Positions 33,949 to 50,569 of a stretch of 64,000 nucleotides of DNA are shown here, one piece after another. The notes below the pieces were generated by a model that worked only from the letters and a program-made list of their open reading frames with translations, was not told the DNA's origin and did no database searches. Position 1 is the stretch's first letter. Each line of letters opens with the position of its first letter. This DNA comes from Streptomyces pseudovenezuelae (GTDB lineage Bacteria; Actinomycetota; Actinomycetes; Streptomycetales; Streptomycetaceae). A program made the translations under genes and the position numbers. The stretch is taken from assembly GCF_001513955.1 (NCBI RefSeq), contig NZ_KQ948149.1, positions 282,227-346,226 of the forward strand, read 5' to 3'.

Positions 33949-33993
33949 AATGTATCAATCACCATAGTCATCGATGGGTAATGATTTGAACCA
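33949..33993. promoter_or_regulatory. divergent control region with two RpiR-type sites
   Basis: Two copies of the island's operator lie here. The site at 33950-33964 reads TGGTGATTGATACAT on the minus strand, and that at 33979-33993 reads TGGTTCAAATCATTA on the minus strand. They flank CATAGT (plus-strand -10-like, 33963-33968) and TACATT (minus-strand -10-like, 33949-33954). A regulator bound here could block both the GH5 gene and the kinase-GH3 operon. Confidence 0.55.
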
Positions 33994-35050
33994 CACACCG
34001 CGCGACGGTCGCGCTCTGGTCATCGGCCTCGACGCCGGCGGCACCCGCACCCGTGCGGTCCTCGCCGCCGCCGACGACGGCCATGTGCTGGGCGAGAGCA
34101 CCGGCGGGCCGGGCAACGCCATGACCGTCCCCGTCCCCCAGCTCACCGACCACCTCACCGAAGCGCTCGCCCGGGTGGTCCCCGAGGAGGCGCGCGCCCG
34201 TGTCGTGTCCGTGACCGGCGGTTTCGCGGGCGCCACGGCGGCCTCCGAGGACGACCCCGGCACCGGCAGGGCCCGCACCGCCCTCACCGAGGCCCTGCGC
34301 CGCCTGGGCATCCCGGCCGGCCGGGTCGGGGTGTGCAGCGACATCGAGGCCGCCTTCGCCGCCGCCCCGGGCACCCCCTCCGAGGGCCTGGCCCTGGTGG
34401 CGGGCACGGGCGCGGTCGCCATGCGCATCACCGGCCGGCACGCCACGACCACCGTGGACGGCGACGGCTGGCTCCTCGGCGACGAGGGCAGCGGCTTCTG
34501 GATCGGCCGCAGCGCGGTCCGCGCCGCCCTGCGCATGGCCGACGGCCGCGGCCGTCCGACCGTCCTGGCCGGCTGGGTCGGCCGCACCCTGGGCCTGCCG
34601 GTCGACGTCCTCCCCAAGGGTGGAATCCCCTCGTACGACCGTGGCGGCGCCGTCCCGCCGAGCGGTACCGCGCCCCACCCCACCGGCGTCCCCGGCTGGG
34701 AACGCGCCCGGCGTGAGGACTTCCGCCGCCATCTGCTGCCCGCCGTCATGGCCGATCCGCCGATCCGGCTGGCCCGCTTCGCCCCGCTGGTCGCCGAGGC
34801 GGCCGCCGAGCGGGACGCCGTGGCCGAGACCATCCTGAGCGAGGCGGCGGACCACCTGCTGGCGGCCGTACGGGCGCTGGAACCGCGTCCCGGGGAGCGG
34901 ATCGTCGCCACGGGCGGGCTCCTCGGTCCCGAGGGGCCGCTGACCGCCCCGCTCGCCGCCCGCCTCCACACGCACGGCCTGAGCCTGGACTGGGTGGCCG
35001 ACGGCCGCCCCGGCGCGGTCGCCCTCGCCCGGCTGGCGCACCCGTCATGA
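33974..35050 (+). CDS. BadF/BadG-type N-acetylglucosamine kinase-like protein
   Basis: This 358-residue ASKHA-fold sugar kinase has phosphate-1 ALVIGLDAGGTRTRAVLA (about 14-30), VCSDIEAAFAAA, the adenosine/phosphate-2 region LALVAGTGAVAMRITG, GDGWLLGDEGSGFWIGRSAVRAAL and the C-terminal ERIVATGGLLG. Relatives phosphorylate GlcNAc to GlcNAc-6-phosphate. The start at 33974 has no ribosome site; a -10-like CATAGT ends five bases before it, so a leaderless transcript is possible, and TTG at 33986 is an alternative. The stop overlaps the next start (ATGA), so it is coupled to the GH3 gene. Confidence 0.87.
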   Translation: MGNDLNHTPRDGRALVIGLDAGGTRTRAVLAAADDGHVLGESTGGPGNAMTVPVPQLTDHLTEALARVVPEEARARVVSVTGGFAGATAASEDDPGTGRARTALTEALRRLGIPAGRVGVCSDIEAAFAAAPGTPSEGLALVAGTGAVAMRITGRHATTTVDGDGWLLGDEGSGFWIGRSAVRAALRMADGRGRPTVLAGWVGRTLGLPVDVLPKGGIPSYDRGGAVPPSGTAPHPTGVPGWERARREDFRRHLLPAVMADPPIRLARFAPLVAEAAAERDAVAETILSEAADHLLAAVRALEPRPGERIVATGGLLGPEGPLTAPLAARLHTHGLSLDWVADGRPGAVALARLAHPS

Positions 35051-50400: not shown

Positions 50401-50534
50401 GTCCGCTGGGGCGTCGGCCAGATCTCCGGCACGGGCTGCCGGGGCTCGGCCGAGGCGGGGGCCGCGGGGGCCGCGAGACCGAACGCCAGCAGCAGGGCGG
50501 CGGCCATACATCTGAGATTGATGAATGAATCCAC
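47475..50534 (-). CDS. secreted GH84 beta-N-acetylglucosaminidase with YVTN beta-propeller
   Basis: This is a 1019-residue secreted enzyme. After the signal peptide ([20 protein letters not shown]) comes a GH20b-like N-domain (35-170). The GH84 barrel opens with [41 protein letters not shown] and holds the catalytic Asp pair in [26 protein letters not shown] is also typical. A helical domain and an Ig-like segment (about 620-700) follow, then about seven YVTN-type repeats ([30 protein letters not shown]), a beta-propeller. The GTG at 50534 is used because it supplies an Arg in the n-region; ATG at 50507 is an alternative. It would release GlcNAc from extracellular glycans. Operator-like sites overlap and precede its start. 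Confidence 0.9.
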   Translation of the reverse strand: [1019 protein letters not shown]

Positions 50535-50569
50535 CTGAGAATGCTAAGAGTGTTGAATGTATCATTCAA
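50519..50569. promoter_or_regulatory. operator-like sites upstream of the GH84 gene
   Basis: TTGAATG-TAT-CATTCAA (50553-50569) is a perfect 7-bp inverted repeat. TGGATTCATTCATCA (minus strand, 50519-50533) overlaps the first codons of the GTG start. Both resemble the sites in front of the other island genes. Confidence 0.5.

Follow-up and report, generated by a model that had tools for sequence, protein, structure and literature searches.

The 64,000-nucleotide stretch of DNA analyzed here, which we call the window, comes from a Streptomyces genome of 9.64 Mb (G000:C6:282227–346226) and carries an island of glycan-degrading and sugar-transport genes whose promoter gaps share a short palindrome, raising the question of which regulator reads these sites and in what form. 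The initial annotation had assigned ten copies of the palindrome to an RpiR-family protein encoded inside the island. By computation, we found the motif, its pairing, its conservation, its restriction to the island and its co-occurrence with a clade of RpiR proteins. It is very probable that the sites are operators of the island RpiR (45619–46503), a paired-site tetrameric repressor of N-glycan-core genes that would be lifted by an amino-sugar 6-phosphate; binding by RpiR, the tetramer, repression, the ligand and the substrate are each steps that we infer. Relative to the earlier claim, what is new is the pair as the unit, one added promoter and corrected site registers. The genes of the island are:

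31112–32590, plus strand: GH3, beta-N-acetylhexosaminidase-like (PF00933; NCBIfam NF003740 just under its cut-off)
32649–33880, minus strand: GH5_18, beta-mannosidase-like (phmmer match to ScGH5_18 7lr7, E = 1e-138, and also to BlGH5_18)
33974–35050, plus strand: BadF/BadG-type sugar kinase, N-acetylglucosamine kinase-like (PF01869; NagK_SO3507 under its cut-off)
35047–37257, plus strand: GH3 beta-glycosidase (PF00933, PF01915), overlapping the end of the kinase gene
37221–39100, minus strand: two ABC sugar permeases (reading frames and orthologs; the second with NCBIfam MalG/UgpE-type matches)
39142–40515, minus strand: sugar-binding protein (SBP) of the ABC importer (PF01547)
41295–45509, minus strand: GH38 alpha-mannosidase (PF01074, PF09261), probable start at 45509 behind GTAGGAG
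45619–46503, minus strand: rpiR, HTH_6 + SIS regulator (PF01418, PF01380; best PDB match 8ju9, P. aeruginosa RccR)
46623–47387, plus strand: SIS-domain enzyme, UPF0309/NagS-like paralog (NF002805; PDB 9eol, SCO4393, E = 2e-34)
47475–50534, minus strand: GH84 beta-N-acetylglucosaminidase (PF07555, E = 6e-114)

The order GH84 – SIS/rpiR – GH38 – SBP – permeases – GH3 is largely conserved among 80 relatives, the nearest named ones by RpiR protein being S. canus and its neighbours. No ATPase gene was seen beside the ABC importer genes. Because GH38, GH5_18 and an ABC importer are the set described as a cytoplasmic N-glycan-core pathway of Cutibacterium acnes (PMC6160142), the island is best read as an N-glycan-core utilization cassette. 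The SIS gene falls in the NagS family (NF002805, 278 bits against a cut-off of 135; UPF0309) and is NagS-like by this assignment, its GlcNAc-6-P dehydratase activity being putative. NagS itself dehydrates GlcNAc-6-P, distant homologs having tested inactive, and nagS adjoins dmdR1 (PMC12680351); the island gene is instead divergent from rpiR and lacks the dmdR1 linkage of NagS (SCO4393).

Three further observations concern the island's reading frames and their surroundings. The GH5_18 start near 33870 (33860–33885, minus strand) is apparently an ATT behind GGAGGATCCC, an uncommon start codon unless the start has been set wrongly; the corresponding codon in relatives is ATC (L092) or ATG (L106). 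A 16-nt inverted repeat (45508–45543; 88% complementary, 4-nt loop) lies at the probable GH38 start and ribosome-binding site and could mask the translation start. Just left of the island, positions 22899–30713 hold a 2604-aa ORF with coding-like GC3.

When the promoter gaps of relatives were aligned, near-invariant short blocks stood out amid variable DNA, each of them 15 nt long and matching TGRWT-N5-AWYCA or varying from it. These blocks define a 15-bp palindrome at the glycan-island promoters, with consensus TGGTTSAWTSAACCA and TGRWT-N5-AWYCA as its core. The window holds 14 such predicted sites, which form seven pairs at seven promoters when the GH5/kinase gap is counted as one promoter. 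Listed without strand, they are:

31053–31067: GH3a-1, TGAATGGCAGAACCA, matrix score 14.7, before the GH3 gene at 31112
31084–31098: GH3a-2, CGGCTGAGCGAGCCA, degenerate, 31 bp from GH3a-1
33947–33961: E1, CGAATGTATCAATCA, leave-one-out score 20.2 (0.9 hits/Mb), kept in 19/19
33979–33993: E2, TAATGATTTGAACCA, kept in 19/19, over the kinase start
40533–40547: C1, perfect palindrome TGGTTCAATGAACCA, block present in 72/73 relatives
40565–40579: C2, reverse complement TGGTCCACCTTTTCA, partner of C1, weak by matrix, over the probable -10 of the SBP operon
45560–45574: B2, TGATTCAAACAACCA, leave-one-out score 22.6 (0 hits/Mb), in 77/77 relatives
45592–45606: B1, TGGTTCATCCATGCA, 32 bp from B2 in 77/77 relatives
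46508–46522: A4, reverse complement TGGCTGATACCTTCT, kept in 80/80, over a possible extended -10 of rpiR
46540–46554: A3, TGAATACCAGGACCG (reverse complement CGGTCCTGGTATTCA), kept in 80/80, low matrix score
46560–46574: A2, TGGTTTATTGATTCA, leave-one-out score 21.2 (0 hits/Mb), containing the -35-like TTGATT of the SIS gene
46594–46608: A1, TGGTTCAATCCATCA, leave-one-out score 21.5 (0 hits/Mb), near the SIS gene +1
50522–50536: D2, TGAATGAATCCACCT, leave-one-out score 16.3 (3.6 hits/Mb), near the GH84 +1
50554–50568: D1, TGAATGTATCATTCA, leave-one-out score 22.1 (0 hits/Mb), over a -35-like TTGAAT

The degenerate GH3a-2 and the probable GH38 start were read from the sequence, and the overlaps of sites with promoter elements from sequence alone. 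Among the latter, A4 and E1 contain an extended -10-like TGATACMTT, E1 thereby covering a possible extended -10 (TGATACATT) of GH5_18. E2 overlaps the first kinase codons (33974–33993), which suggests a leaderless mRNA.

This list revises the ten sites first proposed. The perfect palindrome at 40533–40547 is present as claimed, and the starts at 33979, 45560, 45592, 46560 and 46594 stand with that at 40533; conserved-block alignment moved the other four by 1–4 nt, from 33950 to 33947, 46536 to 46540, 50519 to 50522 and 50553 to 50554. Four sites had been missed (31053, 31084, 40565 and 46508), so that the divergent gap between rpiR and the SIS gene, correctly described as such, holds four sites and not three. 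The single control circuit originally drawn around about ten genes is supported as one regulon, now of about twelve and extending left to the GH3 gene at 31112. Most GH3 orthologs in RpiR-bearing genomes have strong sites at the place equivalent to GH3a-1, for example TGAATCAATCAACCA (L203) and TGGTTGATTGATTCA (L205), and distant GH3 homologs in other genomes have no site there. We considered reading A1 and D2 with an even centre (GGTGGATTGAACCACC and GGTGGATACATTCACC) but kept the 15-bp register, which suits every block and yields a constant spacing.

We compared the motif with background consisting of 1.12 Mb of stretches from the same genome for the matrix and the whole 9.64 Mb for patterns. 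A plain pattern search allowing three mismatches returned 5 matches in the window, where 0.15 would be expected. Using a symmetric matrix built from the relatives' blocks, six window sites outscored everything in the 1.12-Mb background, and GH3a-1 came to light as an additional site; because the training set had come from the corresponding positions in relatives, the scan was repeated with one promoter left out each time, and the best site at each of five promoters then corresponded to 0, 0, 0, 0 and 0.9 hits/Mb of own-genome background. GC-matched genome stretches reaching these best-site scores numbered 0/51, 0/405, 0/77, 0/113 and 1/192. Genome-wide, TGRWTSAWTSAWYCA with at most one mismatch occurs at nine places in 9.64 Mb, five of them in island promoters, compared to one for the reversed-pattern control. 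The looser TGGTTSAWTSAACCA at three mismatches gives 53 places against 43 for its reversed control, so the bare palindrome is unspecific at this threshold, and we assign no single weak site elsewhere to the regulon. Of the matches that the genome holds beyond the island (L121, L298, L118, L301, L005, L117, L120 and L303), none has a good partner, and most overlap ORFs. The statement that similar sites are absent from outside promoters thus holds for high-scoring sites as tested, what remains being isolated matches lacking a good partner and lying mostly in ORFs; by matrix and pattern scans, the motif is not equally common in unrelated promoters, a frequency test that had been named beforehand.

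What sets the island sites apart is their arrangement. Paired sites lie 31–34 bp apart start to start, the distance being 32 bp in five promoters with hardly any exception, and the layout of these five among the seven pairs is exactly 15 + 17 + 15 = 47 bp. The 32-bp spacing is kept before GH38 at 77/77 loci, before rpiR (46508/46540) at 80/80 loci, before GH84 in 32/33 relatives and between E1 and E2 in the GH5/kinase gap at 19 loci; at the SBP promoter, 71 of 72 loci have TGGTCCACMTTTTCA or a one-base variant at a distance of exactly 32 bp from C1. The pair before the SIS gene (A2–A1) is 34 bp apart in 71/79 relatives, and that before the GH3 gene at 31112 is 31 bp apart in the window, with a partner at 31–32 bp in L196, L198, L199 and L201–L205. 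Spacing and conservation are also the support for the low-scoring sites at 31084, 40565, 46508 and 46540. No 32-bp pair was found in the 1.12 Mb of own-genome background, and the two-site pattern occurs at four places in the whole genome, three of which are in the island, each in a different promoter. The comparison covers relatives mostly of one genus. There is about an even chance that RpiR recognizes the 47-bp pair as a unit and not the palindrome by itself. In that case, the RpiR tetramer of this actinobacterial clade would pass over single palindromes elsewhere in the genome and act only at two sites three turns apart, so that a single switch encoded in the cassette would set all seven promoters according to the amino-sugar-phosphate pool.

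Several results tie the paired motif to RpiR. The protein has the N-terminal HTH_6 and C-terminal SIS domains of the family (PF01418, 46 bits against a cut-off of 28.3; PF01380, 76.9 bits against 25), and at the sequence level its presumed operator has the RpiR-family form, a conserved 15-bp TG...CA pseudopalindrome. Of 150 Streptomyces genomes, 23 have an RpiR ortholog (at least 81% identity) and 24 a near-perfect palindrome; the palindrome is found in 18/23 genomes with the ortholog versus 6/127 without it (Fisher p = 4.5e-14, a value inflated by shared descent and confounded further by the cassette moving as a block). In an 82%-identical homolog (L100), the pair stands at 31 bp. More distant proteins are more telling: around a 62%-identical RpiR in another gene setting (G041, L240/L114), one pair of sites lies at rpiR and another near the kinase gene, both at exactly 32 bp, and a 65%-identical RpiR (L273) retains the rpiR pair. 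RpiR homologs of at most 48% identity have essentially no sites nearby, and the 39%-identical paralog (G000:C12:40101; L130) has none. Homologs with the motif share one helix-turn-helix, SAAELGRRTGTSQATVTRFC, which is altered in the others. Co-occurrence in the 150 genomes, transfer with RpiR to another setting and loss with distant homologs together lend support to the RpiR-controlled regulon originally predicted.

In other actinobacterial families (L274–L296), RpiR homologs of ~42–48% identity adjoin a BadF-type kinase in many genera without the motif; the pairing of RpiR with the kinase is therefore older than the operator. A separate recurrent element, TGAGTAGGAAATCCAAACTCACCATAGCYC...GAGTTGGAAAATCA, was seen in about ten Streptomyces genomes (L308, L310, L315, L318, L321 and L329–L331) and has the geometry of two sites but differs from the palindrome in sequence.

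Under the proposed mechanism, an RpiR tetramer would probably grip two 15-bp palindromes on one helix face, their centres 31–34 bp apart (usually 32, or three turns). Sites at the seven promoters would cover the -35, the -10 or the transcription start and so block RNA polymerase, repressing the ABC importer, GH38, GH5_18, two GH3 enzymes, GH84, the GlcNAc-type kinase, the NagS-like SIS enzyme and rpiR itself. We propose a repressor layout because the sites lie on -35, -10 and start regions and on the kinase start codon. Derepression would probably follow once the SIS domain binds an amino-sugar 6-phosphate that the pathway produces. The RpiR proteins studied so far respond to sugar phosphates, and since the predicted regulon includes a kinase and a NagS-like SIS enzyme, an amino-sugar 6-phosphate, with GlcNAc-6-P as first choice, is our best guess.

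Other readings of the same sites were weighed against this one. RpiR might bind them as an activator: family members that activate have been described (PMC12713135; PMC6528599), among them NanR of S. pneumoniae and GlaR of L. lactis, and the rpiR promoter has no clear -35. We consider this unlikely, given that sites over the -35, the -10, the start and even the kinase start codon occupy positions suited to blocking, and that MurR, whose sites share this geometry, acts by repression. Slightly less likely still is that the sites are operators of another regulator encoded elsewhere (a LacI, ROK or GntR protein such as DasR), RpiR acting only at its own promoter or being inactive. Regulators of sugar islands may be encoded elsewhere, and six of the 127 genomes without an RpiR ortholog carry a near-perfect single palindrome. 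Yet the motif goes with the RpiR ortholog and with its helix-turn-helix, and it follows RpiR into another gene setting, the pair geometry equals that of MurR, and two pairs sit in the gap before rpiR itself. For DasR in particular, the dre-like TGGTCTAGACCA with two mismatches gave three matches against 1.1 expected, at chance level and none in island promoters; DasR control of the island was rejected on these grounds, and the motif's distinctness from the DasR site, noted at the outset, is borne out.

Finally, the blocks might be no more than conserved parts of the core promoters, or gaps rich in AT that look palindromic by chance against a GC-rich genome. Several of them do include TTGAAT/TTGATT or TACATT, and the relatives are close, but such scores are hardly ever reached in GC-matched stretches, the reversed pattern occurs only rarely, the 32-bp spacing is kept in pairs and the likely promoter is well upstream of C1; this account is very improbable. 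Operators of the island RpiR, bound in pairs, remain the preferred reading.

An RpiR repressor with its operators is an already known kind of system, and by sequence comparison the island case appears well supported. In the open-access literature, we found no paper on an RpiR-family operator or regulon in Streptomyces. For a regulator present in ~15% of the Streptomyces sampled (23/150), the analysis defines the motif, the list of targets and a strict geometry of two sites. In Streptomyces, GlcNAc-6-P controls development; the inferred ligand would tie use of the N-glycan core to an amino-sugar-phosphate signal. The 47-bp paired layout proposed for MurR recurs at the seven promoters and at a distant homolog, supporting tetramer bridging as a common RpiR mode.

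Among known systems, a tetramer of E. coli MurR is proposed to bridge two sites 17 bp apart, 47 bp in total, over the -35 and -10 (PMC12713135). The island RpiR is like it in its HTH_6 + SIS architecture and in having paired operators over promoter elements, with sites 17 bp apart in five pairs (32 bp start to start) and start distances of 31 and 34 bp in two. MurR also has a SIS enzyme as its divergent neighbour, as does the island rpiR. The two differ in that the island half-site is distinct and its RpiR serves seven promoters of an N-glycan island; the MurR equivalog model NF012026 (106.9 bits against a cut-off of 408) indicates that it is not the E. coli MurR ortholog. Pseudomonas RccR, the nearest solved structure by sequence (8ju9), has a 15-bp pseudopalindromic operator, TGTAGT-N3-ACTACA (PMC5489143), that shares its length and TG...CA ends with the island motif, whereas RccR/HexR inner bases are different, their targets are in central carbon metabolism and the ligand is KDPG. 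NanR proteins of S. pneumoniae and Vibrio are RpiR regulators of amino-sugar islands with ManNAc-6-P as ligand (PMC12713135), but pneumococcal NanR uses an 18-bp site, TCTGAAAGTACTTTTAGA, with no adjacent full second site, and activates. DasR also governs amino-sugar use in Streptomyces but belongs to the GntR family and reads a different site. At the level of gene content, the N-glycan core loci of Cutibacterium acnes and Bifidobacterium have the same GH38 + GH5_18 pair and the same importer type for the Man3GlcNAc2 core (PMC6160142), to which the island adds GH84, two GH3 enzymes, the kinase and the NagS-like enzyme.
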